Shown: positions 7,334-29,313 of the stretch, piece after piece
How the letters are laid out: the number at the start of each line of letters is the position of its first letter
Position numbering within the stretch: the stretch's first letter is position 1
From: Prevotella sp.
Lineage (GTDB): Bacteria > Bacteroidota > Bacteroidia > Bacteroidales > Bacteroidaceae
Length of the DNA: 32,396 nucleotides
Direction of reading: 5' to 3'
Assembly (NCBI GenBank): GCA_017428805.1
Contig: JAFRQC010000044.1
Span: 1-32,396 of the forward strand
Notes under the pieces: model-generated
What the model was told of the DNA's origin: nothing
Database searches by the model: none
The model's input: the letters and a program-made list of their open reading frames with translations, nothing else
Translations under genes and position numbers: made by a program

Positions 7334-9784
7334 TTACAAGTCTTTTTCTATATAGGTGAATGTCGTATGGCCGATGGTGAAGCTCTTGCCGTGATAGAGC
7401 CACACCTCCTTGCCGACGGGCAGGGGCTTGCCATTATCAACCGTCACACCCTCTTCCAATGCCTTGAGACGCAAAGAGTCGATATGACGCTTAATCTCCG
7501 CATGCACAGGAGATACCTGGCCCATGACATCCCACGACAGTTGGATGCTGCAGTCGACTGACTTTCCAAGGGTGACAGCCTGGGTCGGAGAGGCCTTGAA
7601 CCACTTATAGAGTGCGATGTCCATCTCCTTGATGGCACCCTCCACATGCAGGAAGAACCGTTCCGAACGCGGTGTGACGTGGGCAATGCACAGGGCGATG
7701 GCCACGGCATAGACGATGAAGCCGATCAGCAGCGACACCCGGTAGTCGAAGAACGTGTTATAATAGACAAATGCCCACATAAACATGGTGAATACGGATA
7801 TCAGGCATGCCAGGATGAAGAACGAGCGGCGGATGGGGGTGCGCGTCTTGAAGGTGACTGCCAGCATGATGAAGCCACTCAGCAGCGCCCAAGGGATCCA
7901 TTCGGTGAGGAACGTGCTGTATTCGAAATGGAGAAGGATGGAGATGAGACAACCTAACAGGCAGAGGAAGCTTCCTACTGCTCCGGCAATGATGGCACGG
8001 AGCAATATCTCAGCTAAACGATAGAACCACTCACGGTGACGGACGGTGAAGTTCGACAGGAAGAGCGTCAGCAGGAAACCTACAGCCTGACCAAAGGCCG
8101 GCAGGTCGTTCAGGCCTGAGCCATAGTCGAATTCAAAGTTTTCCGCATCGACAGAGTTATGGTGGAACACCGTTTGCAGGTACTCGATGATCGATGTCGA
8201 CATCGGATGGTCACGAGAGACGAATACAATCCAGGCAGTAAAGCCCGCCAAGATGGCGACAAGAATCCACTTCATATAGTACAGCGGATTACGCTGGTCC
8301 AACAGATTATGGCTATTGTAATAATGTGAACCTTCCTGGCAATGACGACCATGTTCGGGACAGTGGTACTCGTTGTCGTCCCAACATTCCTTGTGCATCG
8401 TATGCTTACATTTCACAACAATCTCATCACCTTCCTTGAAAGGAGCCTTGCAGAGATAACACGACTCGGATACCGGTTCCCCCCGGAAACTCATCTTACT
8501 GCCCAAGTACTTAATGACATACTTACGCTCGAAGAAACGATAGCGGATGTAGGGTTCCAAGAACTGGAAAATGCCCCATACCAACAGGATAATGATCAGG
8601 GTGATCACGATGCCGATGGTGATGAACTCAATCATGGGGCCGTCGTCTATGATGAGAGGACTATAGACCGAACCGAGTGAGAATTCCGTCTGTCCCTTGG
8701 CTATCAGGTCGCCGGTTTTCTTGTCGTTGAAGGAGATCTCGAGAATATGACGATCGCCACGGAAGACCTTATGCTCTGGCTGTTCCAAGGTAATCTTGTA
8801 GTTGGAGAGGTCGATATGGTAGTCATGAAGGATGTCTTCCTCCATCTCCTGCCAGTTGAACGAAGGCTGGTACAGACCTCCCAACGACTTACAGAAATAC
8901 TGCAGGATGTTGCTGTCGCTGGTATTGTCTGACAGAGCCATGAGATCCAGACTTTCGGGAGTGCTGGGAGAGAAGTTTGCATAGTAGGCCTGTATCATGC
9001 CCTGATAAAGCTGTGACTTGTCTTTCAGCAACTGCTGAAGTTCAAAGTGTTTGGGATCTACAGGCTGTTCACCATCATAGGTCTTTCCTCCAGAGAGGAT
9101 CACCATCACCTTGTGGCGTGCGCCTCCTATCGTCGTACTCTCATCCTGCATCTCCGCCAATTTTGTCACGACCGAACGGTAGAGATAGATGGTTGAAGGA
9201 TCTTGGTGAACGAAATAATTATCAATGACGTAGTCCGTTGCCTCATAGGTTTCTGTGACGTTGTCATTCTGCATGAAGGCAACGAAGAGGTTTTGTCCGC
9301 CAAAGAGAGCCTTGATATCCTTGACAGCCTTACGCTCAGCGTCCACCTGTTGCTGGGGGATACTCAGGTCTACCAAGACAAGTAATTTGATATCCAGTTT
9401 GTTGAAAATCTCCCTGCTGGCATTGCTTACCTTCGTAATCTTTGGCTGACTCTCCCGGCCCAGTCGGTTCAGTATGCGCTTGATATGCTGATAGGGTTTT
9501 GCGACCACGGCTGAGGAGTCCGTCAGGTCTTGCCCTCCTACTTCATGCAGCAGACGTGCGGACAGTTCCATCACCTTATGATCGTCGGAGAATTCGATGC
9601 TCGTGATCTGCAGGGCATCGCCAACCACTTCCTCCTTATCGTCTGACGACAAAATGTCGTCAATATCCGGAGCAGTCTCCTCATCACAGGAAGTCATTAA
9701 CAGTGAAAAGGTGAAAAGGTGAAAAAGTAAACAACTCATCACCAGCCACCTGTTCCACATTGTCGTATATCTCTTTGTCATCAT
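7334..9784 (-). CDS. Membrane protein: lipobox, vWA-like domain, RING-H2-like finger, seven TM segments, FHA-like domain
   Basis: Candidate E3-like and envelope-anchor protein of 816 residues. The signal ends in LMTSC (Cys33). A periplasmic vWA-like domain spans about 130-300; its metal site is degenerate (DLSIP at 139-143, and GG where a D is usual at 232). TM1 lies at about 386-409. The cytosolic part then has C442-x2-C445-x13-C459-x1-H461-x2-H464-x2-C467-x7-C475-x2-H478, the exact spacing of a RING-H2 cross-brace finger. Six more hydrophobic segments follow (about 504-522, 564-580, 592-618, 629-646, 653-675, 684-702), which places the C-terminus in the cytosol. Residues 735-816 look like an FHA domain (LGKSVDCSIQL, VSPVHAEI, GKSFTIGHTTFTY). 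FHA proteins regulate other T6SS. E3 activity is inferred from the E1, Ubl and E2 genes nearby. It may also fill the place of TssN or TssR. Confidence 0.75.
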   Translation of the reverse strand: MMTKRYTTMWNRWLVMSCLLFHLFTFSLLMTSCDEETAPDIDDILSSDDKEEVVGDALQITSIEFSDDHKVMELSARLLHEVGGQDLTDSSAVVAKPYQHIKRILNRLGRESQPKITKVSNASREIFNKLDIKLLVLVDLSIPQQQVDAERKAVKDIKALFGGQNLFVAFMQNDNVTETYEATDYVIDNYFVHQDPSTIYLYRSVVTKLAEMQDESTTIGGARHKVMVILSGGKTYDGEQPVDPKHFELQQLLKDKSQLYQGMIQAYYANFSPSTPESLDLMALSDNTSDSNILQYFCKSLGGLYQPSFNWQEMEEDILHDYHIDLSNYKITLEQPEHKVFRGDRHILEISFNDKKTGDLIAKGQTEFSLGSVYSPLIIDDGPMIEFITIGIVITLIIILLVWGIFQFLEPYIRYRFFERKYVIKYLGSKMSFRGEPVSESCYLCKAPFKEGDEIVVKCKHTMHKECWDDNEYHCPEHGRHCQEGSHYYNSHNLLDQRNPLYYMKWILVAILAGFTAWIVFVSRDHPMSTSIIEYLQTVFHHNSVDAENFEFDYGSGLNDLPAFGQAVGFLLTLFLSNFTVRHREWFYRLAEILLRAIIAGAVGSFLCLLGCLISILLHFEYSTFLTEWIPWALLSGFIMLAVTFKTRTPIRRSFFILACLISVFTMFMWAFVYYNTFFDYRVSLLIGFIVYAVAIALCIAHVTPRSERFFLHVEGAIKEMDIALYKWFKASPTQAVTLGKSVDCSIQLSWDVMGQVSPVHAEIKRHIDSLRLKALEEGVTVDNGKPLPVGKEVWLYHGKSFTIGHTTFTYIEKDL
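9703..9729 (-). repeat. Tandem CTTTTCAC octamers inside a signal-peptide coding region
   Basis: On the coding strand about three copies of CTTTTCAC (one with an extra T) encode LLFHLFTFSL, the hydrophobic core of the signal sequence of the vWA/RING/FHA protein. Gain or loss of one 8-nt unit would shift the reading frame. The repeat is seen directly; variability is inference. Confidence 0.7.
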
Positions 9785-9807: not shown

Positions 9808-10686
9808 TTATATCGTGGGATAATTATGTTGTCCATTCATCATCTCCTTCATCTTCTTGGCCTGGTCACGAGCCTGCTTGACCTGTGCAAGCTTCGACTT
9901 CAGCAGATTAAGGCCCATCAGCAAGATGGCCACACAAGCCAGCCCCATCAGATAGTCCTTAACGCGCTGGATAAAGGGTTTATAGGCCATCTCCTGGATC
10001 TTCGCGGAGACCGTCTGCAGTTCGAAGACTTTATTATCCATCGCCGTCATCCGGAGTTCGAGGCCTGGGAATGTCGTCGCCGCTTCCTTGGCCTGACCGT
10101 AGTATTTATTGACGTCGGCCGTCAGTGCCTGTTCCTCAGCCTTAACTTTCTCCAACTGGGCCGCCAGCTTCGACGACACCGAGTATTGTATAGCTTTTTT
10201 GTACAACTGACGATAATTCTTATCCTGACTCCAGATGAACTTCTCTGCCGTAGAGAAAGCCACCAACTGGTCGCGCTGCTGTTGACGGGCTGCCAGCGTG
10301 TCGGTGACGGCCTGCCGCATCTGCTGAATGATAGCCACGCGGTTGAGGAGGCTGTCGTCGTCGGCAATATACACTTGTTGGGCGGCAGAATAGGTGTCCC
10401 AACGTGTGGAGAAGGAGGTCAAGGCCGACGACAATGACTTGAGGCGCTCGGAGACCACATCGATAAGCGGCTCGTTCAGTGGCATATCCATGTCGATGTC
10501 CACACGGAACTTACAAAGGGCATTCAACTGTATCAGTTCCTCCTGAAACAGCTCCATGTGCTCATTGATGTCTGTAAAGGTGGAATCGAGTTCCTCCTCA
10601 GCAGACATTTCCCCCTGTGCCCATACCACCGAAGGCAGCATGCACACGAAGATGATGAGTCGCCATAAGTTCCTTTTTATGTTCAT
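9808..10686 (-). CDS. Exported coiled-coil protein with C-terminal membrane anchor
   Basis: A 292-residue protein of no family I recognise, probably part of the envelope assembly of this T6SS. I use the ATG at 10686, which gives a clean signal peptide (MNIKRNLWRLIIFV...VVWAQ) and overlaps the previous stop as TAATG; a TTG at 10698 is possible but less likely. The periplasmic part (about 25-240) is almost wholly helical and coiled-coil-like, rich in Gln, Ala, Lys and Glu. One TM helix lies at about 245-265 (LMGLACVAILLMGLNLL), followed by a basic cytosolic tail. The topology, a periplasmic coiled coil joined to the inner membrane, recalls TssO-type proteins of Bacteroidetes T6SS, but that comparison is only by shape. 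Confidence 0.65.
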   Translation of the reverse strand: MNIKRNLWRLIIFVCMLPSVVWAQGEMSAEEELDSTFTDINEHMELFQEELIQLNALCKFRVDIDMDMPLNEPLIDVVSERLKSLSSALTSFSTRWDTYSAAQQVYIADDDSLLNRVAIIQQMRQAVTDTLAARQQQRDQLVAFSTAEKFIWSQDKNYRQLYKKAIQYSVSSKLAAQLEKVKAEEQALTADVNKYYGQAKEAATTFPGLELRMTAMDNKVFELQTVSAKIQEMAYKPFIQRVKDYLMGLACVAILLMGLNLLKSKLAQVKQARDQAKKMKEMMNGQHNYPTI

Positions 10687-11879
10687 TATCTGTTGCAATT
10701 GTTTCTAAAATAACGTTCCGCCTCACGGAATACCTGCACGGCCTGTTTCTGCTCTGTGGTATAGATACCCTGACTATGGATGGTCTCATTACAGGTCTTG
10801 ATAAGAGTTTCCATCTGGAAGATGATGTCACGACGCTCGACAGGATCATTCGACAGCAGATAACGCGACACTGCCGCGTCTATCTGACGGGCTTTTGTCA
10901 ACAGCGACCTGGAACTCAGGCCATCGCCGCCGCCTGGGATGATGGACTTTGCTGCAGCGACAACCTTGCAGTTCATACTGCTGATGGAGTCAGTGTAGGC
11001 GTTATAGGCGTCCACAGCCTCCTGGATATCCGGACAGAGACTTTGGTCGTTCTTGCGAGGATACTGTTCTGCGAGCTGACTCTTCAGGTCCTGGAAGGTC
11101 TTCAGACTCTCCTCGCTATCGACGGTCCCGCTGCCAAAGCTCTTACGCAAGCTGTTATAACTCTTGCGGACACCGTCAAGAGCAGCCTTTGCCGAGGCGA
11201 TGTCTTCATCCAGACCGAAGCAGGGATTGCGCTGGATTTCCACATGATACTCTGTGTAGAGATCACGGCCGAAGGGGATCTCAAACCGCCGTTTGTTGAT
11301 ATGCTTGCTGACGTCGTTCATCAACATCACGTCACGAAGACGAACAACGACAGAATTGCTTTTCTTCAAAATGTCGAAGGTCTGGGTGATGTAGTCGTTC
11401 ACCATGGCATACTCCTGCGGTGCAGGCTGCAATCCCTCGTAGTCAATCCAGCGATGGAAGACATACTTTTTAGTGGGTCTGGGCACCGTGTTCTTGAAGA
11501 GCTTGGAGATGCGGTACTGATCCTTTGGTTCATAGGTGACCACGTAAGGCAACTGGTCGGGACGGAGCTTGCGGCCCTTGATGAGCGGCTTGAACCGTAC
11601 ATCCTCCCTGAACACGAAGATCATGCGGTGGGAGATCAGCGTCACGGTCAGCTGGTTAGCCGCCTCGTCGAACACGAACTTCACCATGATGTCCTTGTCG
11701 GTGACATCGCCTTCCAGGCTGATATGGTCGGTATAGGATTGCTCCTGGCTGACCGCAATGTTCTTTACTGTCTGGGCAGATAGAGGTAAAAAGGTGAAAA
11801 GGTGAAAAAGTAAAACACTTATCACCAACCTTTTACCAATACTCTTATTATATAGTTTCATATTCATTTGCATATTCAC
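10686..11879 (-). CDS. Exported protein of unknown family, T6SS envelope module
   Basis: Secreted to the periplasm or outer membrane; function unknown. The start is ambiguous because ATG occurs at codons 1, 3, 5 and 7 in a small ATG-rich repeat (MNMQMNMKLYNK). Any of them gives a signal peptide whose core (SVLLFHLFTFLPLSAQ) is made by CTTTTCAC octamers. Residues about 35-165 are beta-rich, then about 215-390 are helical. The Cys residues at about 217, 283, 304, 364 and 395 could form disulfides. No lipobox is visible. It follows the E2 gene and overlaps the next gene by 1 nt (TAATG), so it is translated in step with the coiled-coil anchor protein. It may be part of a trans-envelope complex, by context only. 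Confidence 0.65.
   Translation of the reverse strand: MNMQMNMKLYNKSIGKRLVISVLLFHLFTFLPLSAQTVKNIAVSQEQSYTDHISLEGDVTDKDIMVKFVFDEAANQLTVTLISHRMIFVFREDVRFKPLIKGRKLRPDQLPYVVTYEPKDQYRISKLFKNTVPRPTKKYVFHRWIDYEGLQPAPQEYAMVNDYITQTFDILKKSNSVVVRLRDVMLMNDVSKHINKRRFEIPFGRDLYTEYHVEIQRNPCFGLDEDIASAKAALDGVRKSYNSLRKSFGSGTVDSEESLKTFQDLKSQLAEQYPRKNDQSLCPDIQEAVDAYNAYTDSISSMNCKVVAAAKSIIPGGGDGLSSRSLLTKARQIDAAVSRYLLSNDPVERRDIIFQMETLIKTCNETIHSQGIYTTEQKQAVQVFREAERYFRNNCNR
11786..11811 (-). repeat. Tandem CTTTTCAC octamers inside a signal-peptide coding region
   Basis: Three slightly imperfect CTTTTCAC units on the coding strand encode LLFHLFTFL in the signal peptide of the 397-residue exported protein. It is the same octamer and the same peptide as in the vWA/RING/FHA gene, although the two proteins are otherwise unrelated. 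Confidence 0.7.
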
Positions 11880-11905: not shown

Positions 11906-12481
11906 TCAAAACACCGTCCATTCCTTCGGTTCTCCCTGACGGACAACCCAGGCTGCAACCTTGAGGTCCTCTGGATACGGTGGTTCGGATATGGCATGAT
12001 AGACCTCATAGCGCAGATAGTGCGCCACCCGCTCCACGGCCCAGGCCAGGTCGGTATAGGTGTCGGGCATGTTGATGCACACCCTCCCGGCAAAGTCGCC
12101 GAAATACCGGATGTTGGGATGCCAGGGATGAGGAATGGGCTGTCCCTGCTCATCGTGGGTCAGGAAACGGAATGCCGGAGCCGCGTCGACAGACGGGTAA
12201 CCGTCGGGCAGATCTATCCGCATCTGGAAACCTGTGGAAAAGACCGGTGGATTCTCTGCACCGGGTTCTCCGAAATGCTCCAGGTTCTCCACCCCACTGA
12301 TGCTCCTCAGCTGATAGTCGACCAAATAGGCCGTGGGCAGTCCGTCCTTGTTACGGCGGACGGGCTGACACGTGATGTCATGCCGATGCTCCAGCCGTTG
12401 GTCTAACTGCTGCCACTCATACAACAGGCGTCGGTTGCGTCCCTTGTACTGGCTTATCTCATATCGGTCGCTCTCTCTCAT
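11906..12481 (-). CDS. E2-like ubiquitin-conjugating enzyme (UBC fold)
   Basis: Predicted to take an activated Ubl from the E1 as a thioester on Cys135 and pass it to targets in the cytosol. The 191-residue protein carries the order of motifs of true E2s: LPDGYPSVDAAPAFRFLT (91-108), HPNI with intact HPN at 121-123, G-R-V-C-I with Cys135, a Trp at 147, a helix with RVAHYLRYEV, and a final helix with EDLKVAAWV. The N-terminal 40 residues form a charged helix, as E2 helix 1 should. Its start codon overlaps the stop of the Ubl gene (ATGA), so Ubl and E2 are translated together. Length and motifs fit a catalytically competent E2 rather than a degenerate UEV. The substrate is unknown. Confidence 0.85.
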   Translation of the reverse strand: MRESDRYEISQYKGRNRRLLYEWQQLDQRLEHRHDITCQPVRRNKDGLPTAYLVDYQLRSISGVENLEHFGEPGAENPPVFSTGFQMRIDLPDGYPSVDAAPAFRFLTHDEQGQPIPHPWHPNIRYFGDFAGRVCINMPDTYTDLAWAVERVAHYLRYEVYHAISEPPYPEDLKVAAWVVRQGEPKEWTVF

Positions 12482-12795
12482 CCTGGGAAGGGATCTGGCA
12501 TCAGGAACACTTTATCGCCGCTCTGCACACCGTAGTCGAGCAGCGTCTGGTCTGTACGTCCGATTCTCGGACGGAGCACACGTATCTCGTGCACGTCAGG
12601 ATCCTCACGCCCGAAGAAATAGTCAAGGGGCGCTCCCGTTCCGTCGATGGACGGGAAGTCGAAGATCAGTTTGCCGTCTTCGCCGATGGCATGCGTCAGG
12701 TTAGTCATCAGCGTGCTCAGCGGAGCTTCAGGGTTTACTACCCTGAAACGCACGGTCTTGTTCTTATACACAATGTCTAAAAAGAAATCTTCCAT
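12478..12795 (-). CDS. Ubiquitin-like modifier (beta-grasp) with C-terminal Gly
   Basis: Predicted protein modifier for the E1 and E2 of this operon. It has 105 residues, longer than ubiquitin (76) because of an insert around residues 40-75. The N-terminal strands (FLDIVYKNKTVRFRVV) match a beta-grasp hairpin. The C-terminal part TLLDYGVQSGDKVFLM (84-99) aligns without gaps to ubiquitin TLSDYNIQKESTLHLV and continues six residues to a terminal Gly105, exactly where ubiquitin ends. The tail is PDPFPG, with one Gly instead of GG and no extension, so no protease is needed to expose it. It also resembles YukD-type Ubls of type VII secretion. The following E2 ATG overlaps its stop. Conjugation is inferred. 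Confidence 0.8.
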   Translation of the reverse strand: MEDFFLDIVYKNKTVRFRVVNPEAPLSTLMTNLTHAIGEDGKLIFDFPSIDGTGAPLDYFFGREDPDVHEIRVLRPRIGRTDQTLLDYGVQSGDKVFLMPDPFPG

Positions 12796-12796
12796 A

Positions 12797-12823
12797 AACT
12801 TTGAACTTTGAACTTTGAACTTT
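12797..12823 (-). repeat. Four tandem AACTTTG heptamers just before the Ubl start
   Basis: The 48-nt gap between tssF and the Ubl gene contains AACTTTG repeated three times plus six bases, ending 1 nt before the Ubl ATG. On the transcript it reads as repeated CAAAGTT. Change in copy number would alter the leader of the Ubl and E2 genes but not any reading frame. Confidence 0.75.
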
Positions 12824-12843
12824 AATCTTTATGATTTCTCTTT

Positions 12844-14553
12844 TCACTTCTTCTCAATATTCAATGTGACGATCACCGGATAGATGTTGGTGCTCCTCAC
12901 TTCGATCATCTTCTGCATGAGGATTCCCACCCGCGAGGCCTTCTCCGCAAAGCTGCGCTTGACGAACGGATTGTCGGCCAGCACGATCTCCACCACAATC
13001 TCATAGCCGCAACCACGACGGTCCAGCTGTTGACGACGGTTGACCGTCAGGCTCTTCACCATATCCCGGACGATGCCATAACGGGTCAGCAGCTCGTTGT
13101 AGCAGAACAGTTTGATGTCTGCCAGTGTCACGATGCGGTCGCTCGTGGCGATATAGTAACGTGAGAGGCTGGCCAGGGCGGCCTCTTCCGTCATCTCGTC
13201 CTTACCCATGACGGGATTGGCAATCTGGCGTGTCTGGGCGGCACTCAGTCCTCCAGGTACGGTGAAGGTGCTGTCCACATTCAGCGAAGCATTGACACCT
13301 GCCCCTGCTGTCGTGAGATAGCTCACATCGACACTCCCCTTTCCACTCTCAATGATGCGGGGATTCCGCAGCAACAGGTAGACGCCAGGCACCTGTTGCA
13401 ACTGATCTTTCTTGGATATCTCCATCAGTCGTGTCAGTGTCTCCTGCAGTGACTGCATGGTCTTGTCGCCCGAGAAGCCCTGCAGTCCCTGGAAAGCATA
13501 GAAGTCAGAGTGATATCTGGCGATGAGGGCGTTGAGCAGACGCACCAGCCGTCCTTGGTTGAAACGGTCGGCGGCCACCTTACGCACCTCAATCAGGCTG
13601 TTACCGTAAAGCTGTTCCTCTGAAGGACGCACAGCATGGAGGAACTGCAGGTTCACATGATCCTCGTCCTTGTCATAGCCTGCCACACGGGCGATGGGGG
13701 TCTGATTGCTCAGGGTCGTCTGATGCAGCTGGGCATTCACCAGCACCACCGGATTCAGGGAGAGATGCTGCTTGTCGAAGACAAACTGGTCGGTGACTCC
13801 TGAGAACTCGAAAATGAGGTCTATGACATCTGTCTCTGTAGAGAGGTACCGCACCGAGCCGTGATGACGGAAAACGAACAGACGGATGTTCTGGCGAGCA
13901 AACAGGTCGAGACAGGTGGCGGAGGCCTCATAGGTCTGCGACCGGTTGTAAAGTATCGTGTCCAGTCCGAAACAGTCCTGCAGGGGGAGTTCGGAATAGT
14001 CCCACGGTCTGATGAGGGGCAGCTGATGGTCCTTGATACTGACGGTGAGATCCTGGAAGTCCAGGCTGTCCACCACAAAGGCAAATCCCGACAGATCCTT
14101 GATGGGGGTGCTAAAATGGAGGGTCACCTTGAAACGACGACCGTCCATCCTTATGATAGATTTGATCTTTGCATTCAACAGACGGGTTTTCAGCAGGGGT
14201 ATGAACGCATAACCGGTGCCATTGAGCATGAAGTTACTTTGGGCATTCATCTCCAACTCTGGCACGGAGTCCTGAAGGGCTGTCTCCACCACGGCTGTTG
14301 CAGGTACGGCATGTCCCACCTCGAAGGGTGTCAGCAACTGGGCGAAGTCCTCCATCACCTCAGTCTTCATGGCCTCTAGGTCGCTGGCACTCTCATTTGC
14401 CTGATAGGCCATGGCTGTGATCATCAGCTTGAGAACGGGGTCATTCTCAAGTCCTTCAAGCTTGTCGTTGTCATCGCTCTGCCGCCAGATGTTGAAAGCC
14501 TCGCGCAACAACTCCTCTGCCCTCTGTTTGGTTTCAAATATCGTCTGTTTCAT
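12844..14553 (-). CDS. tssF: T6SS baseplate protein TssF
   Basis: Baseplate wedge protein that, with TssE, TssG and TssK, forms the platform on which the sheath and tube assemble. At 569 residues it is close to TssF size. The N-terminal helix region has ENDPVLKLMITAMAYQANE (about 35-55), like the DPxVxRLL...A...A motif of TssF. This is followed by LTPFEVGHAVPATAVVE (about 75-90), the usual TPxxxxxxPSxxVV-like turn before the beta-rich body. The C-terminal part contains RYGIVRDMVKSL and ends in a beta strand, YPVIVTLNIEK. It sits after tssE and before the Ubl gene. The family is fairly sure; details of wedge contacts are from known relatives. Confidence 0.85.
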   Translation of the reverse strand: MKQTIFETKQRAEELLREAFNIWRQSDDNDKLEGLENDPVLKLMITAMAYQANESASDLEAMKTEVMEDFAQLLTPFEVGHAVPATAVVETALQDSVPELEMNAQSNFMLNGTGYAFIPLLKTRLLNAKIKSIIRMDGRRFKVTLHFSTPIKDLSGFAFVVDSLDFQDLTVSIKDHQLPLIRPWDYSELPLQDCFGLDTILYNRSQTYEASATCLDLFARQNIRLFVFRHHGSVRYLSTETDVIDLIFEFSGVTDQFVFDKQHLSLNPVVLVNAQLHQTTLSNQTPIARVAGYDKDEDHVNLQFLHAVRPSEEQLYGNSLIEVRKVAADRFNQGRLVRLLNALIARYHSDFYAFQGLQGFSGDKTMQSLQETLTRLMEISKKDQLQQVPGVYLLLRNPRIIESGKGSVDVSYLTTAGAGVNASLNVDSTFTVPGGLSAAQTRQIANPVMGKDEMTEEAALASLSRYYIATSDRIVTLADIKLFCYNELLTRYGIVRDMVKSLTVNRRQQLDRRGCGYEIVVEIVLADNPFVKRSFAEKASRVGILMQKMIEVRSTNIYPVIVTLNIEKK

Positions 14554-14572
14554 TCAATTCTCTAATTCTTGA

Positions 14573-15028
14573 TCAGTTCCACACTTTGATAGTTTGGTCG
14601 TAGATATAATCCTCTTTCGTGCTTATGATGACGCCTTTTACGGTAATATATATCAGTCGTTCCTCCCGGATGTAAGTCATCGACACGGATATCTTCTCCA
14701 GCCGATCCTCATATTTGGAGATGGCGGCCTTCAGTTCTGCGGCAAAGGTGTTGATACTCTTTGAAGAACCGGAGATCTTCTTGTCGTATGCCCCTTGGAT
14801 ATTGCTCATCGTATCGGTGTCGCCAGAGTCGAAGACGACGCCCTCGTTCTCATTGAACATCTCAAACCGCAGGTTATTGAACACGAAGCCAAACTGCGGG
14901 TCAGCCGGTGTACTGAAACGCTCGGTCGTGATGATGAGGTACATGTTAGCGTCGATCGATCTTTTCAGGCCGTCTTCACGCTGCAGTCCCTTGGGGGTCA
15001 GTAGGAGTGGTATGCTGATGCTGGTCAT
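14573..15028 (-). CDS. tssE: T6SS baseplate protein TssE (gp25-like)
   Basis: Homologue of phage T4 gp25, the lysozyme-like-fold baseplate wedge protein that starts sheath polymerisation. The 151-residue protein has the gp25 core at about 90-130: FAAELKAAISKYEDRLEKIS with YEDRL matching the usual Y-E-x-R-L, then VSMTYIREERLIYITVKGVI. Its N-terminal half has GFVFNNLRFEMFNENEG, which is longer than in Proteobacterial TssE. It begins 12 nt after tssK and ends 19 nt before tssF, consistent with co-expression. Confidence rests on the YEDRL block and position. Confidence 0.75.
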   Translation of the reverse strand: MTSISIPLLLTPKGLQREDGLKRSIDANMYLIITTERFSTPADPQFGFVFNNLRFEMFNENEGVVFDSGDTDTMSNIQGAYDKKISGSSKSINTFAAELKAAISKYEDRLEKISVSMTYIREERLIYITVKGVIISTKEDYIYDQTIKVWN

Positions 15029-15040
15029 CTTATTTACGAT

Positions 15041-16246
15041 TTAGATTAGCGGCACGAATTTCTCTTCTTCCGGTTCTGGCACATAGAGCGCCTTGAACAG
15101 GTTCTCGAACAGTTCGAAGTACAATTTCTCATAGAGAGACTCATTGAGCTGCTTACCAAGTTCATCGAACTTCGCTGTCAGCATCTCGCTCATCTTGGTC
15201 TGACGGTCGTTCATCTCCGTTGTCAGCTGTTCGAGGATTGCCGTCTTCAGCGTCTCGTTGATATAGGTGGTCAGCTGCTCCGTCTGCTGCCTCATCTCCT
15301 CGCGCAGCTCTTCCTTCATGTCAGCCAGCAGCTTCTCAATCAACTCCGGATGCAGTTTCTCGTACAGTTCTTTCTTGGCCTGGGCGAGTAGCGCCTCGTA
15401 ATCGATGGTGTTGTCTTCAAGTACCACTCCGTCGAGGATGATGGCGGCTCCCTTCATATAGTCCTCAAGCCATTGCAGCCAAGCCTGTATATCTATCTGC
15501 TGGGGTTGTGGTATGTCGATGGGCTGGTCCCTGTTGGGCGTCACGACATAGTAGTCAATGGCCTGGGCCATCTCCTGAGTGAGCAGGATGAAGTTCTGCA
15601 TGGAGTTCTTCATGTTGTAGCTCTTGAGCAGGAAGACATAACGCAGGAAGGCCCGTTTGCCTTCTCCCTCGGCCAGGTTGGGATGGGTCGACAGGATGGT
15701 CATCTGTTCCAAATAGCTGCTAAGATACTCCTTAAAGCGGATATTCTCTGTCAACAGCAGACAGGGAGGCATATAACTGGTATCAGCAGAGAAGATGCCC
15801 TCGGCCACATGGAAGCGCAACAAGGGGAACAGATCATTCGCCTCTACCTCTTCCTTGGTATGGATGCCATAGACGTAGTGGGGTCTGACGAATGCCACGC
15901 CCTTCTTCTCAAACTCCACCTGATCATTGCCGAATCCTACCGTCAGATAATATTTGTCGCCGAAGAGCATAGGAATGGTCACCTCTATGTCCTCGTCGGC
16001 ATCGATCACTCTTCCTGACGGCAGCACAGCCTGACAGCGGAAGCCAGACACTTCGAAGCGGTTCTTGACGAAGATACCGTTACAGTTGAAAGGAGAGCCC
16101 GGCACCAGTCCCATGCGGCTGTTGCCTACTGCCGCACGGATGGCCAGCATCTGACGGAAATCCCACTGTTCTGAGATTCCTGAGAACGTCTCGGCCGTCA
16201 GCTCCATGCCTGGCACCCAGTTGATTCTTGAATTAATATCGACCAT
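15041..16246 (-). CDS. tssK: T6SS baseplate adaptor TssK with long C-terminal coiled coil
   Basis: TssK links the baseplate to the membrane complex. The start INWVPGMELTAETFSG (residues 8-23) is the family hallmark, and the N-terminal shell domain (1-190) and helical middle (190-280, RAFLRYVFLLKSYNMKN) follow. From about residue 280 to 385 the protein is a long charged helix with heptad-like spacing (EALLAQAKKELYEKLHPELIEKLL and onward), ending in FENLFKALYVPEPEEEKFVPLI. In better known TssK proteins the C-terminal head contacts TssL/TssM or TssN. The coiled-coil end here fits the lack of those partners. It is placed between tssG and tssE with gaps of 5 and 12 nt. The altered membrane contact is inference. 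Confidence 0.8.
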   Translation of the reverse strand: MVDINSRINWVPGMELTAETFSGISEQWDFRQMLAIRAAVGNSRMGLVPGSPFNCNGIFVKNRFEVSGFRCQAVLPSGRVIDADEDIEVTIPMLFGDKYYLTVGFGNDQVEFEKKGVAFVRPHYVYGIHTKEEVEANDLFPLLRFHVAEGIFSADTSYMPPCLLLTENIRFKEYLSSYLEQMTILSTHPNLAEGEGKRAFLRYVFLLKSYNMKNSMQNFILLTQEMAQAIDYYVVTPNRDQPIDIPQPQQIDIQAWLQWLEDYMKGAAIILDGVVLEDNTIDYEALLAQAKKELYEKLHPELIEKLLADMKEELREEMRQQTEQLTTYINETLKTAILEQLTTEMNDRQTKMSEMLTAKFDELGKQLNESLYEKLYFELFENLFKALYVPEPEEEKFVPLI

Positions 16247-16251
16247 TATAT

Positions 16252-17055
16252 TTACAATTTACTGATTTTCGATTTGCTTACCTCTGTATTATACCCTAAT
16301 GTCAAGCGGTTGTCGGTCTGCGGGGGTACATCATACTCTTTGATGACAATCTCGCACCATACCTCGAGAGGGATCATCCACTCACACAGGAATTCCCGCA
16401 GCGGCTGAATCTCTTTGTCTTTCTCCTGAAACTCTTCCGGTGTCAGACCTGGGATGACCAGATCATATCTCACCATAGGCAGCCAGCTTCTGGTTGTGTC
16501 GCTATGACTATAACGACCAGTCATCATATTGACCTCACATTTGATCAGTGTCCGGAGCAAATTAGCGATAAAACCGAAGTCTCCCCGGCGACGGTTTACA
16601 TATGGGAGCAGAATGGCTGCCTCACGGACATAGGGGTTCTCAATCTTGTCGAGATCGACACCGAAATAGGTGTTCAGGATATAAGCCAACTTACCCTGAA
16701 GCAGACTGTCCATCTGATGCTCCACGTAGAGACTCTCACGGAAGCGGTAAGTGTCGATGGGTTTGAAGGTCTCGCGGAGGAGTCTGAGTTTCAACTCCAA
16801 CTGCTTGAACTTCTCTGCAGCGTCCTCACCCTTCAGGTCTGTCTCCTGGGTGAGCAGTCCCTGCGGCAACAGTTTGATGAAACTGTCACGTGCCGTCTGT
16901 GCCACCATCTTCTCTTCGTCGATGGTGAGCAGGTCGCTGTTATAGTTACGGAAAAATGTTCCCTCATTCTGGGAAGTCCACTGGTTGAACATCTCAGGAT
17001 AGAGATAGTTCAGCAGCAGTTCTGCACGGATTTCGGGTATACTATTCTTTATCAT
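16252..17055 (-). CDS. tssG: T6SS baseplate protein, probable TssG
   Basis: Probable TssG, which binds two TssF copies in the wedge. It has 267 residues. The N-terminal part is helical with an early LLLNYLYPEMFNQW motif. The centre has LPYVNRRRGDFGFIANLLRTL (about 150-170), similar in layout to the TssG segment before its ferredoxin-like part. The C-terminal part has LREFLCEWMIPLEVWCEIVIKEYD, a helix then strand. Similarity to known TssG is weak and the call leans on position: it sits in the tssG-tssK-tssE-tssF order, and no other gene in the window fits. Its ATG overlaps the E1 stop codon (ATGA), coupling baseplate translation to the E1. Confidence 0.6.
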   Translation of the reverse strand: MIKNSIPEIRAELLLNYLYPEMFNQWTSQNEGTFFRNYNSDLLTIDEEKMVAQTARDSFIKLLPQGLLTQETDLKGEDAAEKFKQLELKLRLLRETFKPIDTYRFRESLYVEHQMDSLLQGKLAYILNTYFGVDLDKIENPYVREAAILLPYVNRRRGDFGFIANLLRTLIKCEVNMMTGRYSHSDTTRSWLPMVRYDLVIPGLTPEEFQEKDKEIQPLREFLCEWMIPLEVWCEIVIKEYDVPPQTDNRLTLGYNTEVSKSKISKL

Positions 17056-18191
17056 TCTTCACGTCTTATTTCAAAATAAAAACTTTCATCGTCTGCTGTC
17101 ACTTGCACGATGTCGTGCTGTGGGATGCCGAGCTGTGCCAATGTCAGTGACGGATAGGGGAATCCGGTGTCTATATGACGGTACTCATGCTGGTAGAGTG
17201 CACTCAGAGGCTGTCCGTCCAAGGACTTTTCACCAGCCACCTTGTCTGCCACCGAACGACCGGGAGCCATGATGGAGATACGCTCGTCATTATCACGCCT
17301 CGAGACATAGTCCACGAAACAGTCATTTGCCAGACAGAGTGTCAACTTCTCACTTTTCACTTCTCCTTTTTCACTTAATTCCTGAGCCCAGCACCGAAGG
17401 GCCTCGCCGACGGGTGTGGCAACACAGACCGCCGTCTGACGGACAGGTGCCCACAGTTCATGTTCGGGACACTCGTCATCGTAGGCCTGATAGCCGGCGA
17501 TGCGGACCGTCGTATGCTCCCCGTCGTAATAGAGCATCCGGCCACAGAGCGAGGTACCGAAGTCCTGCTGTATCAGTTTCAGCGCCTCCTGAACCTCGAT
17601 GGCTCCGATGATGGAGGCGATGATGGAAGTCGTGGGGGCAGAGCCAGCCTGTTCCTGCCGCCGGATGATACCTGAACAGGGCATCCGTCTCGCCAGATCC
17701 TTCAGTCCTTCGGGACCTAGATTACAGGCATAGCAGTTCTTTCCCGGTGCGAACACGCGCACTGTTCCTTCCAGTCCGTCAATACCGCCGTCCACCCAGG
17801 GGATGCCAGCCCGCATACAGAGACGATTGATGCAGAACCGTGCCCAACGGCTGTCCACACATCCAATGACGACATCCATCTGACGGATGAGTCCCAAGCC
17901 GACATCATAGGCGATATCGCCACAGATGGCTGTCACTTCTACAGCATCGTTCATCTGCTGCAGTCGTTCTGCCACCACTTCCACTTTCAGCCGTTTCCTC
18001 TCGGCATCGCTCTTTGAAAAGAGGACGGAACGGATGAGGTTACCCATTTCCACGATGTCGAAGTCAACGACCACGATATGAGTGACACCCATCAGCACCA
18101 GGTTCTTGAGCACCTCGTTACCCAAGGCGCCACAGCCGACCACCATCACATGGGCGGCACTTACCTGATTCTGTCTGATGTCCATACTCAT
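17052..18191 (-). CDS. E1-like Ubl-activating enzyme (ThiF/MoeB/UBA fold)
   Basis: Predicted to adenylate the C-terminal Gly of the Ubl and hold it as a thioester. The Rossmann part has GCGALG (19-24), D43-x-D45, N51-x-x-R54 and K69 for ATP, and D113 after VVIG, as in active E1s. Zinc ligands are C153-x2-C156 and C241-x2-H244. C172 in MPCSGII lies where E1s carry the catalytic Cys and is followed by a Thr/Ser-rich helix (APTTSIIASIIGAIEVQEALK). Residues 250-379 form an extra C-terminal domain that ends in LTLAQLGIPQHDIVQV, a beta-grasp-like motif. Residues about 272-283 are encoded by an octamer-type repeat and probably form a flexible joint. It overlaps tssG by 4 nt. A sulfur-carrier role (MoeB/ThiF) is less likely given the E2 nearby. 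Confidence 0.85.
   Translation of the reverse strand: MSMDIRQNQVSAAHVMVVGCGALGNEVLKNLVLMGVTHIVVVDFDIVEMGNLIRSVLFSKSDAERKRLKVEVVAERLQQMNDAVEVTAICGDIAYDVGLGLIRQMDVVIGCVDSRWARFCINRLCMRAGIPWVDGGIDGLEGTVRVFAPGKNCYACNLGPEGLKDLARRMPCSGIIRRQEQAGSAPTTSIIASIIGAIEVQEALKLIQQDFGTSLCGRMLYYDGEHTTVRIAGYQAYDDECPEHELWAPVRQTAVCVATPVGEALRCWAQELSEKGEVKSEKLTLCLANDCFVDYVSRRDNDERISIMAPGRSVADKVAGEKSLDGQPLSALYQHEYRHIDTGFPYPSLTLAQLGIPQHDIVQVTADDESFYFEIRREE
17343..17376 (-). repeat. CTTTTCAC-type repeat inside the E1 gene
   Basis: Four or five degenerate octamers on the plus strand. On the coding strand they read SEKGEVKSEKL, a charged stretch between the E1 catalytic part and its C-terminal domain. Here the repeat is in the opposite orientation to the signal-peptide copies and has lost the TGA that a perfect copy would create. 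Confidence 0.55.
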
Positions 18192-19670: not shown

Positions 19671-20060
19671 TCACTTTCCCTGAGTCGTCATGCTTCCACT
19701 GGGATTGGTGACAGAGATATTGCCACCCCAGGTACACATACATTTGGCGTTGTTGATGAGTGCAGGCATATTCATGACCTTCACCTGTCCACCAGGACTC
19801 CACGGTGCCGGAATCACAGGGACACAAGGCATCGGTGTGAGTACACCCATAGCAGCGGCAGTGGCTGAGGCAACCGTCGGATTAGCCATCGACTGACACA
19901 TGCCGAAAGGCATAATGTTTACCATCGGAGCAAAGTCGGTGATGTTGGCCATCAGCATGTTACCACATTTGGGACGCAGCGGCACAATCACGTTCAGCGT
20001 GGACGGTGCCATACCGAAACTACATTGGAGCATAGCTCCCTGACATACAAAATTTCCCAT
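19671..20060 (-). CDS. PAAR-like spike tip protein (DUF4280 type)
   Basis: Small protein that sharpens the tip of the VgrG spike. The 129-residue sequence starts with MGNFVCQGAMLQCSFGMAPS, the DUF4280/PAAR-like hallmark CxGAxxxCSxG, and continues with repeated hydrophobic beta turns and Pro/Gly-rich loops (MPCVPVIPAPWSPGG, ALINNAKCMC). Cys6, Cys13, and the later Cys in KCMCTWGG could bind a metal, as PAAR tips do. There is no C-terminal effector extension, so this is a bare tip. It follows the outer-membrane barrel gene and precedes the PEGA gene. Confidence 0.85.
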   Translation of the reverse strand: MGNFVCQGAMLQCSFGMAPSTLNVIVPLRPKCGNMLMANITDFAPMVNIMPFGMCQSMANPTVASATAAAMGVLTPMPCVPVIPAPWSPGGQVKVMNMPALINNAKCMCTWGGNISVTNPSGSMTTQGK

Positions 20061-21043: not shown

Positions 21044-21070
21044 CTTTTCACTCTTCACTTTTCACTTCTT
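21036..21070. repeat. Octamer repeat providing the start codon of the barrel gene
   Basis: Four CTTTTCAC-like units lie between the RRF-like gene and the barrel gene. On the coding strand they are GTGAAAAG units, and the GTG of the last unit (21041-21043) begins the best signal peptide. The first unit overlaps the leader just after the previous stop codon. Confidence 0.6.
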
Positions 21071-23789: not shown

Positions 23790-26700
23790 TTACTTTACAC
23801 TATTTACCTTCTTCTTCAACGTTTCCGAAAGATCGGTGGTTATTACGTCAATAATGGCATGGTTTTCCGCCAGCTGGTTTTTATCGATATGGAGCGTTAC
23901 ACCTGTTGTGTCGGACAGTAGGATACGACCTTTCTCGGCTGATCTAAATCGATTTGTGACGGAAACGGCATCAATCCAATTATTAATTTTTCCATCCATA
24001 AAGTAGGACCTCGCCCATTTAGCGGCAGCGTTTGGTTTTGAGAATGTATAATCAGCTGCTTTAATTTTTTCGGCGAATGACATCCAATCATTAACACTTC
24101 CGTAATCACCTGGCTCTGCGGTATCATCCATTTTGAATATTTTTTGATAGTCAGCTTCTCCTTTGGCCTTAATAAGAAATTGATAGACAATTTTTCTGCG
24201 GAGCTTCGTCATCTCCTTTGCAAAGTCATCGAAAGACTGGTTTTCTGGAACAGTACCTTTACTGGCATTGTCGATAAAATTAGTATAGATGTCAAGTGCT
24301 CGGATTGAGGTATAAAGGGCATCAGAATGATAACAGTCTAATTTCTCGATTTTGCCAATTTCAAAATTTTTCCAAGCATCTGCAGCTTTGAAAAGAACTT
24401 TCAGATTATTGCCAACAGTCCTGGCAAGAGAAACAATATCGTCTCTCCTTTTCTTAGTATTTGTATCATTTTCCTTCCTTATACTAAAAAGCAGTTTTGC
24501 GAAATCCACCCTATCATTGTAATCATCTTCGCGTTCTTCTTCGTTCTTTTCCGGGGCGGTAAATTTCGCATCTGGACCACCCACCCTATAGGCGAGCGCC
24601 GCAATTTCGTCGAATCCGAAATCAGTATCCTTGATGGTATCTTTTATCGATTTGTCACGATTATCAAAGACTTTCTTTATCAACCCGTTTGCACCGTTAA
24701 CAAGCTTCATATCGCCCAAAGAGTTGTAGTAAACAATGGCTTGCCTATTATTGTCGAGACCTTGATAATTTTTATACTCAATAATGCTGGCCTTTACCTT
24801 CTCGTAAGCAGTCTTGATATTATTACAAAGCTCGTCGGCCTTGGAAGTATATATATCAATGCCTCTTGTCAGATCGCCCAAAATACGACCTGCCTTATCG
24901 CCACTCTTAATCTTCTCCCTCCTTGGATGTGAGAGATTGTCGACCGGAATCTGAGCCTTACCCTTGCCTGCCTCAATCAGGACATAGGTGTTGGACTTAA
25001 TCTTCAGCGTGCCATCAACAGGACGGGTGAACACCTCCAATATAGTACGGAAAAACGACAGGTCGAGCCATTTGCAAACCGTCCTGTTCATCACATCTTC
25101 ACCCATAGTAATGAGACCACCTAATCCCCAATTCGCCCAGGATCCCAAGGAATTCAACTTATCTGGCGGATTCACAAAATGGTCGCCGACTGCTGTACCC
25201 GAGGTCAGTGAGAGCTTGTTGCTGGCAGAGATCGACACATTCTTGCCTTCTATCTTGACATTGCCATTCGGTGCGGAAATGGTGATGCCTGTAAAGGCAT
25301 TCAAACTGACGTTACCCAGGGGTGAAGCGATATTCACCGAACGTTTGTCTGACGACATATTAATCTGATACAGGCCATAACGGTCAGTGATATTGATGCC
25401 GCCAGTAAGATCGACCATGTTCTGGTCGGTGATTAGCGGTTTGTAAAGAGGGATTACGCTCCTGATAAACGAGGCCGCAGGAGACAGTCCGATCAGGAAA
25501 TCTACGCCGTCAGTTTTATCATTAAAGGTAATGGAATGACCATTTTTCGACCGGATGACACGGTCAGGCAGAGGCAGCCACGGATCCGTGACATATCTTG
25601 ACTGCAAGGAGCCAACAATATAGGGCCGTTCGATATTACCGTCCTCATAGTTGAGCAACACCTCATCCCCAGTACAAGGCCTGAAGATGACACCACCGCC
25701 GGCAGTGGCAAAGGGTGTCGCCATACGGACCCACGGCGACTTGTCGCCGTCCTCTGGCTGCCAAGGATACCTCACACGTACCCGTCCAAAACGGTTCGGG
25801 TCGAGATTGTCCTCCACAAAGGCCACCTGAGCCTCCGCTGTCCTGACGGTCGGAATCTCCGGCATCAGCGGCGGACACGGGATGGCTTTCTGTATTTTTT
25901 GGTCAGTACCCACTTCCTTATATAAAGGAGGTATGGCTTCAACAATATAGTTTCCGCTCTCATCCAGTTCCACCTTGATGACAATGTAGAAGCCACCCCC
26001 CACCTTGATCACGTCACCTAAGCACAGGCCTTGATCATCTGCTCCGTAGTTCAATCTGACAAGTAACTGACTGACTGTCTGAGAGGCACGACGCATCTTG
26101 GAATAGAAAGCGGCCGTCAGCAATGACACAACATTACCTTTTTGGTTGACGGTCAGGCTGCTGTCAGAAATGAGGGATTTTAAGGTAGAGAACAGATTGA
26201 ACGTTGTGCCGTCGGTCTGGTCAGGGTTTTCATCCTTGTCCAGAGTCAGGTTCTTGTCATTGTTCTGGTCGTTCTTTTTCTTCATGGCCACACCAGCATC
26301 CTTCGCCGTTTGAGCGACAGACCAGACGATATCTGAAATGATGTCGTAAAGACTAGTATCATTCAAGGCCGTATAAAAGAGATTGAGCAACATTAACCTG
26401 TAATCGAACGACTCATTGGAGAAATTGGTGTAGCCGTCCTTTTTAAGTTCCACGAAATTGGCATCGTTTGCTTCTGGCTGGTTATAAACAGCCTTGAATC
26501 CCTGACCTGTAAGCACCTTAGTCGTTTTGGATGTTGAGACATGTTTACCGTCTTGCTTCTTATACTTTGTAGAGCCGTCTGTATCTTTTGCTACTTTGTC
26601 ATCTGTATCTTTTTCCTTTTCATATTCGTAAACTACTGTTTCCGTCAACTTCCACAATTCCTCATTCTCGCTGTTGGTAATCGTAGTTGTTGTCACGACC

Positions 26701-27761
26701 TTACTGATCTCACCATTCAGTTTAACTACTTCTTTGTCATCACTGTTATAGTAAGAGGTCTCAACGATGACCGTCTTTTTTCCTTTCTCATAATTATAGA
26801 TTGTTGTTTCCGTCACCAAACCATTTTCCACTTTACTTGTCGTAGTTGGATCATCCTTCGGCTTATATTCACCAAGTAGCGACGTGGGAGAATCGACATA
26901 ACGGTTGTCGTTTTCCGATGAACGCATGGTAAAATCATAGTGACAACCTTCCACATCGAGCACATGATCGACAGATTCCTCATAGTCCACAGAGTCGGCC
27001 ACACCCGCCTGGTCTTTTGATGCCTTCTCAAGATCTGGTTTCATGCCTAAGTTCAGTGATCCCCCCTCAAAATACAACATCTCGCCACAACGGATGGCAC
27101 TACGAGCCAGGAAGTCATAGAAACTTTCATTATATTGCACAAGATACGGCTGTCGGATCTCTACCGTATTGTCCTTATTTTTATAGTTCAGGAACTGAAG
27201 ATTCACCTTGCCCTGAAGCTGCGCAGGGTTTGGAGTGAGAATGAATTTCTTGATGCCTTCTGTGAAGATCTCACCGCCCAATTTACGTGCTGTATAGGCG
27301 TAACAATACTTGTCGATGGTTGCCAGTTTGTCCATGCTATAGCAGAACAGCTCCACATAAAGGCTTGTTGCAGCAGAACTCTTTTTTTGGATAGGCTTCA
27401 TCTTATAGACGAAGTAATTCTCTGCCACTTTAAGATCTTCTGTATCATTATTATACACAAGGGTCACCAACTGTCTGGAAAATTTCTCCTGCAAAGCAGA
27501 GAAACTAGGAAATTCACTGGAACTATCTGTATCACCGGAACTACCGGAACCACTGGAACCATCTGTGCCACCAGAATTATCAGTTTTACTCACTTTAGTC
27601 AAGTCCAACTTTACATGTATATAACCTGGCGCAAAGATTCTTTTTTGATAGTCCAGTTTATCAATTGACACGTTATATTCGACAGAACCGATGGCGACTA
27701 CAGTGTTATCTTCCGCCTTAATATCACTAATAGAACCAACTGTCAATTTATATTTTCCCAT
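23790..27761 (-). CDS. vgrG: VgrG/TssI spike protein with long C-terminal extension
   Basis: Trimeric spike that caps the tube; 1323 residues, about twice the length of a minimal VgrG. Residues about 1-630 are the gp27-like part, with a Thr/Lys/Glu-rich insertion at about 314-415. The gp5-like OB fold is at about 640-740 (VEDNLDPNRFGRVRVRYPWQ, GDEVLLNYEDGNIERPYIVGS). Residues about 760-880 carry repeated strands (NGHSITFND, ISAPNGNVKIEGKNVSISAS), the start of the needle. Residues about 900-1300 are a mostly helical, charged extension of no known family. Its DNA (about 23900-25000) is visibly richer in A and T than the neighbours. The final residues return to VgrG-like strands (GVTLHIDKNQL). 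The extension could be a cargo domain; no immunity gene is obvious next to it. Confidence 0.85.
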   Translation of the reverse strand: MGKYKLTVGSISDIKAEDNTVVAIGSVEYNVSIDKLDYQKRIFAPGYIHVKLDLTKVSKTDNSGGTDGSSGSGSSGDTDSSSEFPSFSALQEKFSRQLVTLVYNNDTEDLKVAENYFVYKMKPIQKKSSAATSLYVELFCYSMDKLATIDKYCYAYTARKLGGEIFTEGIKKFILTPNPAQLQGKVNLQFLNYKNKDNTVEIRQPYLVQYNESFYDFLARSAIRCGEMLYFEGGSLNLGMKPDLEKASKDQAGVADSVDYEESVDHVLDVEGCHYDFTMRSSENDNRYVDSPTSLLGEYKPKDDPTTTSKVENGLVTETTIYNYEKGKKTVIVETSYYNSDDKEVVKLNGEISKVVTTTTITNSENEELWKLTETVVYEYEKEKDTDDKVAKDTDGSTKYKKQDGKHVSTSKTTKVLTGQGFKAVYNQPEANDANFVELKKDGYTNFSNESFDYRLMLLNLFYTALNDTSLYDIISDIVWSVAQTAKDAGVAMKKKNDQNNDKNLTLDKDENPDQTDGTTFNLFSTLKSLISDSSLTVNQKGNVVSLLTAAFYSKMRRASQTVSQLLVRLNYGADDQGLCLGDVIKVGGGFYIVIKVELDESGNYIVEAIPPLYKEVGTDQKIQKAIPCPPLMPEIPTVRTAEAQVAFVEDNLDPNRFGRVRVRYPWQPEDGDKSPWVRMATPFATAGGGVIFRPCTGDEVLLNYEDGNIERPYIVGSLQSRYVTDPWLPLPDRVIRSKNGHSITFNDKTDGVDFLIGLSPAASFIRSVIPLYKPLITDQNMVDLTGGINITDRYGLYQINMSSDKRSVNIASPLGNVSLNAFTGITISAPNGNVKIEGKNVSISASNKLSLTSGTAVGDHFVNPPDKLNSLGSWANWGLGGLITMGEDVMNRTVCKWLDLSFFRTILEVFTRPVDGTLKIKSNTYVLIEAGKGKAQIPVDNLSHPRREKIKSGDKAGRILGDLTRGIDIYTSKADELCNNIKTAYEKVKASIIEYKNYQGLDNNRQAIVYYNSLGDMKLVNGANGLIKKVFDNRDKSIKDTIKDTDFGFDEIAALAYRVGGPDAKFTAPEKNEEEREDDYNDRVDFAKLLFSIRKENDTNTKKRRDDIVSLARTVGNNLKVLFKAADAWKNFEIGKIEKLDCYHSDALYTSIRALDIYTNFIDNASKGTVPENQSFDDFAKEMTKLRRKIVYQFLIKAKGEADYQKIFKMDDTAEPGDYGSVNDWMSFAEKIKAADYTFSKPNAAAKWARSYFMDGKINNWIDAVSVTNRFRSAEKGRILLSDTTGVTLHIDKNQLAENHAIIDVITTDLSETLKKKVNSVK

Positions 27762-28276: not shown

Positions 28277-28290
28277 AGCCGTCGGAGGAT

Positions 28291-28710: not shown

Positions 28711-28762
28711 AGGAATTGCTTCTAAAATATAAACAGTTCGTGAGGTTCGCTTTTACACGGTT

Positions 28763-28872
28763 AATCAATTGACCCAGTCCGAAGACTGAATCAATTGATT
28801 GATAGAGTGGAACAATTCTCGGATATTCAAATTCATTTACTTGATGCTTCGCATCGAGTAGGAATCGCCTAC
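28763..28872 (-). promoter_or_regulatory. Structured spacer with three hairpins after the second tssD
   Basis: The 158-nt gap between tssD copies 2 and 3 has a 10-bp inverted repeat AATCAATTGA / TCAATTGATT (28763-28772, 28791-28800) enclosing a 4-bp stem AGTC/GACT with a CGAA tetraloop. It also has a GATGC-TTC-GCATC hairpin (28843-28855) and a GTAGG/CCTAC stem overlapping the stop of tssD copy 2. There is no T-run, so it looks like an RNA-processing, stability or partial-termination element that separates the highly expressed tube genes from the rest. TTAATCAATTGA also occurs, inverted, at 29305-29316 beside the stop of tssD copy 1. Confidence 0.5.
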
Positions 28873-29267: not shown

Positions 29268-29313
29268 AATATTTTAATTTTATGGTTCAACTTACTTCTT
29301 AACTCTCAATTGA

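Follow-up and report, generated by a model that had tools for sequence, protein, structure and literature searches.

In Bacteroidota, subtype iii of the type VI secretion system (T6SS) is described, in the sections of PMC10781749 drawn on here, as having a TssNQOPR membrane complex. In Bacteroides fragilis, TssN is the membrane hub that binds TssK, combining five transmembrane (TM) helices with the cytoplasmic domain that makes this contact, and tssN lies between tssK and tssG; TssR is a lipoprotein with a vWA-like domain (same sections of PMC10781749). Here we analysed a stretch of Prevotella sp. DNA (GCA_017428805.1, contig JAFRQC010000044.1, positions 1 to 32,396 of the forward strand; "the window" refers to this whole stretch of 32,396 nucleotides), which holds a T6SS operon of a Prevotella-like bacterium with genes for an activating enzyme (E1), a ubiquitin-like protein (Ubl) and a conjugating enzyme (E2) inside it. 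As in subtype iii, TssB, TssC, TssD, ClpV, VgrG, a gp25-like TssE and TssK-like and TssF-like proteins were present, and in an 816-aa protein a vWA-like region and a bundle of TM helices were united with an FHA domain on the cytoplasmic side, features comparable to those reported in part for TssR and TssN. The operon differed from subtype iii in the addition of E1, Ubl, E2 and the 816-aa RING-FHA protein, and the Pfam model found no TssN in any of the 12 genomes that carried this module and a single T6SS. It is probable that a dedicated Ubl-conjugation module, for which we infer enzyme activity and targets, is a constituent of one Bacteroidales T6SS subtype, with its ligase in the membrane.

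Prokaryotic Ubl systems with a RING were reportedly described by Burroughs, Iyer and Aravind in 2011. Such systems, as far as a later summary covers them in the part used here (PMC7159879), share with the present loci an operon encoding E1, Ubl, E2, a JAB protease and a candidate RING-type ligase (E3). In the one system described there, however, Ubl is fused to E2 and lies beside vWA-MoxR/FtsH genes; the present loci encode Ubl and E2 as separate proteins, and their RING shares one protein with TM helices and an FHA domain, within a T6SS.

The window system itself was a T6SS. TssC, Hcp, VgrG, a ClpV fragment and TssE all scored over their cut-offs, TssK was a weak match, TssF was recognised through a relative, and TssB and TssG were assigned from relatives or place alone, together giving the sheath, Hcp tube, VgrG spike, ClpV and baseplate (TssE/F/G/K) that define such a machine. 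The presence of E1, Ubl and E2 within the operon, claimed by an earlier sequence-only reading of this DNA, was confirmed by family matches and predicted structures. The E1-like enzyme (379 aa; 17052..18191, reverse strand, as for all window genes given here) had a ThiF/adenylation domain with a GxGxxG motif (ThiF E=1e-52), and residues invariant in alignments included the zinc pair C153/C156 with C241/H244 and a candidate thiol, C172. By profile, its nearest solved chains were UBA7, UBA2, UBA6 and MoeB, with UBA7 matched at 1e-30 and BubCD at only 9e-12; the C-terminal ~130 aa may, at a guess, be a ubiquitin-fold or E2-recruiting domain. The E2-like enzyme (191 aa; 11906..12481) matched UQ_con at 5e-4 and carried WHPN at residues 120-123 and a catalytic Cys135, and its HPN and Cys were invariant across the aligned relatives. 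A profile of 10 diverse E2 rows matched UBE2K in the PDB (1.1e-5), and one of 18 close rows returned nothing from the PDB at E<=1. The Ubl (105 aa; 12478..12795) comprised one predicted beta-grasp domain, judged by its model and fold matches, and its best profile match in the PDB had E=0.022. It ended in PDPFPG, so C-terminal trimming would be needless. Structure prediction yielded the UBC fold for E2 and the beta-grasp fold for Ubl that the sequence-only reading had proposed, and the catalytic residues it had named (E1 Cys172, E2 Cys135 and Ubl Gly105) were kept in all complete T6SS-linked copies read. With an E1 motif and thiol, a predicted UBC fold with its Cys and a Ubl with a terminal Gly, the three proteins would form a Ubl-conjugation cascade.

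The candidate E3 (816 aa; 7334..9784) contained a signal sequence with a lipobox (C33), a vWA-like periplasmic region, a TM helix, a RING, a TM bundle of 5-6 helices and a C-terminal FHA domain (28.0 bits, over cut-off). The RING ligands (C442, C445, C459, H461, H464, C467, C475 and C482) were all present in 20/20 window-type rows, and the pattern recurred in all nine full-length proteins from other loci (two more were cut by the ends of their stretches); in nine diverse rows, seven of the eight were invariant. A RING profile matched the RINGs of RNF126 and RCHY1 (0.0011 and 0.0016). A hydropathy scan placed one TM helix at 388-406, ahead of the RING, and, across 20 rows, six helices after it in 12, five in 7 and four in 1; six helices would put the RING and the FHA domain on one side of the membrane. 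Relatives of the protein in G052 and G082 matched a vWA domain, and the Pfam scan gave no such match in the 816-aa protein itself. Lipobox Cys33 was kept in all 20 window-type rows and not in other lineages. The 816-aa RING/multi-TM/FHA protein is likely to be the E3 of the module, since it has the cross-brace zinc ligands of a RING-type E3, with E2 binding and transfer putative. The sequence-only reading, whose protein identities and T6SS link stand, had omitted this candidate, the JAB proteases of other lineages, the standalone versions of the module and the TssN-less subtype.

A scan of genome contigs identified 19 sister loci, all from uncultured Prevotellaceae or Prevotella, and in every one the genes for Ubl, E2, TssE, TssF and the RING-FHA protein were grouped together. 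E1 immediately preceded tssG in the window, where the two genes overlapped by ATGA, and in 18/18 sister loci with both genes (L015 begins within the operon). The same adjacency held in 8/8 further loci in which both were recognised, some of which had Ubl-E2 elsewhere in the operon. The window-type order was E1-tssG-tssK-tssE-tssF-Ubl-E2-397aa-296aa-RING-FHA, and the G424-type order was Ubl-E2-x-x-JAB-RING-FHA-(x)-E1-tssG-tssK-tssE-tssF, with the tssG position of the latter sometimes occupied by a 295-302 aa gene of no recognised family. In a comparison of 18 window proteins, each against 2-13 of the more distant sister loci, Ubl (median identity 81%, 13 loci) ranked second only to TssC (93%, 3 loci), followed by E2 (66%), E1 (65%), TssE (57%), TssF (54%), TssK (53%), TssG (51%) and the RING-FHA protein (40%) among those of the operon considered here. 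Ubl, with an identity above that of the baseplate proteins, is thus under stronger purifying selection than they are.

The survey of T6SS loci for the E1, Ubl and E2 families that the sequence-only reading had proposed revealed, besides this long-kept gene order, co-occurrence across several Bacteroidales families. We used TssC as the marker of a T6SS in genome counts. Among 301 genomes drawn from the family, E2 was found in 10 of the 23 with TssC and in 0/278 without it, nine of the ten carrying it on the same contig as TssC (Fisher p=8e-13, a test that ignores relatedness and treats the counts as more independent than they are). The order draw (393 genomes) contained E2 in 6 and TssC in 18, one of them a fragment; E2 was found in 5/18 TssC-positive versus 1/375 TssC-negative genomes, the latter being G052. 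E2 was also found in 3/395 genomes of the phylum draw (G001 and the closely related pair G492 and G586) and in 5 of sixty relatives. Of 37 genomes carrying a complete TssC, all 13 that were E2-positive and none of the 24 that were E2-negative encoded the RING-FHA protein. The link between module and T6SS is not due to chance.

TssN scored over cut-off in 16 of these 37 genomes, comprising 15/24 without E2 and 1/13 with it, and the sole E2-positive genome with TssN (G1034) carried a second TssC that grouped with canonical ones. Nine of the 24 E2-negative genomes had neither TssN nor E2. A TssN match in G1056 was under cut-off and on a different contig, and the Pfam model found none among the 27 window proteins or in the nearest genome, G001. 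The module marks a T6SS subtype without TssN, and Bacteroidales T6SSs divide into subtypes with and without this protein. A TssC tree of 40 systems, for which the program warned of long branches, separated a clade of 21 (17 from TssN genomes and 4 without; support 100/100) from the rest, which held all 14 module rows, a group from G294, G853, G979 and G1007, and G910. In that group, a third one among the T6SSs of the family (L060/L061 in G294), TssC was nearest to that of module-bearing systems, and TssN, E2 and RING-FHA were not found in any of its four genomes.

A JAMM (JAB) protease gene was found in 7/13 TssC-positive genomes with the module, immediately ahead of the RING-FHA gene in those seven T6SS loci and also in G052, G492 and G586. 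None was found in G001, G1108, G1034, G1032, G846 or G821, and none was matched among the scanned window proteins. As the JAB-less genomes and the window formed one clade in the TssC tree (95/96), a single loss suffices, and JAB seems to have been lost in the window's clade. T6SS-linked Ubls ended in IAG in 7/7 genomes with JAB and in PG in 6/6 without, a split that may reflect one event on the tree; it is not a general rule, because the standalone modules of G492 and G586, which do have JAB, carry Ubls with VPG and VPGGK at the end. Two further proteins were encoded between E2 and the RING gene in every window-type locus: a 397-aa exported or membrane protein (10686..11879) and a 296-aa protein with a C-terminal TM helix (9808..10698), the latter adjoining the RING gene. 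We considered whether they are what was once the N-terminal portion of the JAB protein found in other lineages and dropped the idea, as profile comparison gave it no support (the best pair, the 397-aa protein and a 388-aa G278 protein, had a probability of 66%).

We postulate that E1 would adenylate the C-terminal Gly of Ubl and load Ubl on C172, that Ubl would be handed on to C135 of E2, and that the RING-FHA protein would serve as E3 at the inner membrane, the site of baseplate docking, with its RING bringing E2~Ubl to the baseplate. We place the protein at the docking site because it joins an exported vWA-like part and a TM bundle to an FHA domain in the cytoplasm and is present where TssN is missing. 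The protein that receives Ubl would be part of the machine itself, most likely of its baseplate or membrane complex, and this tagging would gate assembly or firing. In most other lineages, the tag would be taken off by the JAB protease whose gene precedes the RING gene; the window's clade lacks JAB, and tagging there would be one-way or reversed by another enzyme. The Pseudomonas T6SS is controlled by threonine phosphorylation through PpkA/Fha1. The present loci resemble that arrangement in that an FHA protein lies at the membrane of the T6SS and that G424 has, close to its T6SS baseplate genes, a gene for a Ser/Thr kinase (2e-43); they differ from it in the fusion of the FHA domain to a RING and TM bundle and in the added Ubl cascade. 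The FHA domain could, through a phospho-Thr input, make tagging depend on Ser/Thr phosphorylation. More tentatively, and with some doubt, the 816-aa protein may replace the TssN hub, acting as baseplate dock and ligase at once, so that phosphorylation-licensed Ubl tagging assembles or fires the machine.

Several observations weigh against a dedicated conjugation module of the T6SS. Matches of the 816-aa protein to Pfam RING families stayed below cut-off, the predicted fold of Ubl is found in non-conjugated domains too, e.g., EccD, and no E1 turned up in the parts of G278 that were read. On the TssC tree the module label requires three changes rather than one, although a single origin with later loss is possible, and G910 has a TssC of module type and neither E2 nor RING-FHA, on a T6SS contig of only 11 kb. 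The module also occurs alone. In G052, E1, Ubl, E2, a JAB-TM protein and a vWA-RING-FHA protein lie beside SrfB (1e-213) and a Virul_Fac GTPase-like gene (1.8e-139), and G492 and G586 carry E1-Ubl-E2-JAB-vWA/RING-like/FHA; no T6SS gene was recognised in 40 kb of sequence in any of the three. In G492 and G586, the RING region (L072:347-2728, L073/L074) holds the sequence frame, but the majority of its zinc ligands are gone, a pattern that recalls a U-box. Since E2 and JAB-RING occur without nearby T6SS genes in these genomes, the module is not T6SS-specific by nature; it looks as if it predates the T6SS link or extends more widely and was taken up into a single T6SS lineage, or the opposite may have happened. 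The SrfB/Virul_Fac region of G052 additionally encoded a protein of 357 aa in which a tandem pair of Ubl copies is joined to another region (L038:5811-6881), a second JAB protein with an N-terminal Ubl-like part and a Ubl-TM protein (L038:4939-5793, L038:3181-3924).

Alternatively, Ubl might tag secreted cargo (Hcp-, VgrG- or PAAR-linked effectors) for sorting or loading, or itself be delivered to the target cell, leaving the machine unmodified. This is unlikely: although the module shares one gene run with VgrG, four Hcp-like genes and a PAAR-like gene, the VgrG-PAAR region varies among sister loci while E1-tssG and Ubl-E2 are constant, E1 is tied to baseplate genes and the RING protein is predicted to be membrane-bound.

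Phage tails and T6SSs are homologous, which would suit an anti-phage conjugation module of Bil or CBASS type that sits in the operon by chance and tags phage tails. Prokaryotic E1-E2-Ubl-JAB operons are known in defence, according to the parts of PMC11354881 and PMC7159879 used here. BilABCD likewise has separate genes for Ubl, E1 and E2, and a JAB as in some of the present lineages, but in that account (PMC11354881) BilA carries a pair of Ubl domains and BilD a pair of adenylation domains, where the proteins here have one each. We rejected membership of Bil because Ubl is a single 105-aa domain, the 379-aa E1 contains one ThiF stretch and JAB was not found in the window. To our knowledge, Bil systems have no RING or FHA domain. 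The ThiF-type E1 also recalls the E1-E2 fusions of CBASS Cap2 and 6A-MBL (PADLOC and NCBIfam models), but membership of CBASS type II or 6A-MBL was rejected since E1 and E2 are separate, there is no nucleotidyltransferase and the models match the ThiF part only. Given in addition that E2, Ubl and RING had no match in the defence library, that the E1 profile was far closer to UBA7 than to BubCD, and that the module strictly co-occurs with one T6SS subtype over several families in a kept E1-tssG order, a chance defence module is improbable.

It is slightly less probable still that Ubl is a non-conjugated scaffold, akin to YukD or, in type VII secretion, the EccD domain, or else a sulfur carrier, with E1 and E2 relics or otherwise used. 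EccD domains were among the best fold matches of the Ubl model, the G052 Ubl had a weak Pfam match to YukD, and TssN itself is reported as EccD-like in the sections cited (PMC10781749), but Ubl, E1 and E2 stay together with the terminal Gly and both Cys kept, JAB proteases stand alongside in 7/13 genomes, and a sulfur carrier would have no use for an E2 or RING. A plain MoeB/ThiF cofactor cluster was rejected, as neither E2 nor RING is expected there.

Ubl cascades and T6SSs are each of known kinds; their combination was not found described in the literature searched, and no description of a Ubl cascade in a T6SS locus was recognised among the openly licensed papers that the searches listed. 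In the parts of PMC10781749 considered, "ubiquitin" appears solely for the EccD-like fold, and the main text of Coyne 2016 (PMC4714493) contains neither "ubiquitin" nor "ThiF" nor "FHA", but notes two T6SS loci that fall outside the three architectures of that paper. Bacterial Ubl systems are mostly discussed as anti-phage defence, and a T6SS module, if this reading is true, would make one part of a contractile weapon. This suggests a weapon built or controlled with a type of tag best known from eukaryotic cells, in a host group that is abundant in gut and rumen and has kept the module across several families. Regulation of a large nanomachine by bacterial Ubl conjugation becomes testable, and a bacterial E1-E2-RING-JAB set whose E1 is close in sequence to eukaryotic ones is material for the origins of ubiquitin signalling.

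The remaining T6SS genes of the window included the TssC sheath protein (29741..31105; PF17541 E=1.2e-100), a VgrG-like spike protein (23790..27761; PF04717 E=2.1e-17), two Hcp (TssD) genes (28869..29706; PF17642 2.5e-23 and 4.8e-30) and a DUF4280 protein (19671..20060; PF14107 2.3e-30), which we take to be PAAR-like. Among baseplate proteins, TssE (gp25-like; 14573..15028) scored 28.1 bits against PF04965, over cut-off, and the TssK-like protein (15041..16246) matched TIGR03353 at E=0.0016, under cut-off. The TssF-like protein (12844..14553) had no direct family match in the Pfam scan and resembled a G082 protein (1e-10) that is itself over the Pfam TssF cut-off. The TssG-like protein (16252..17055), without a match in the Pfam scan and assigned from its place and relatives, was the weakest of the T6SS assignments. 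Four consecutive Hcp-like genes, two of them divergent, spanned 27776-29706, the first (27776-28276) with a weak zinc-knuckle match. The cargo-like VgrG-PAAR region encoded a 234-aa protein (21069-21773) that matched ribosome-recycling factor over cut-off (42.6 bits) and relatives of which occurred in many sister loci. At the operon end lay an 839-aa protein (4713-7232) with seven BACON stretches and a Big_2 domain, and G424 had a BACON protein at the same place, adjoining its Ser/Thr kinase gene.

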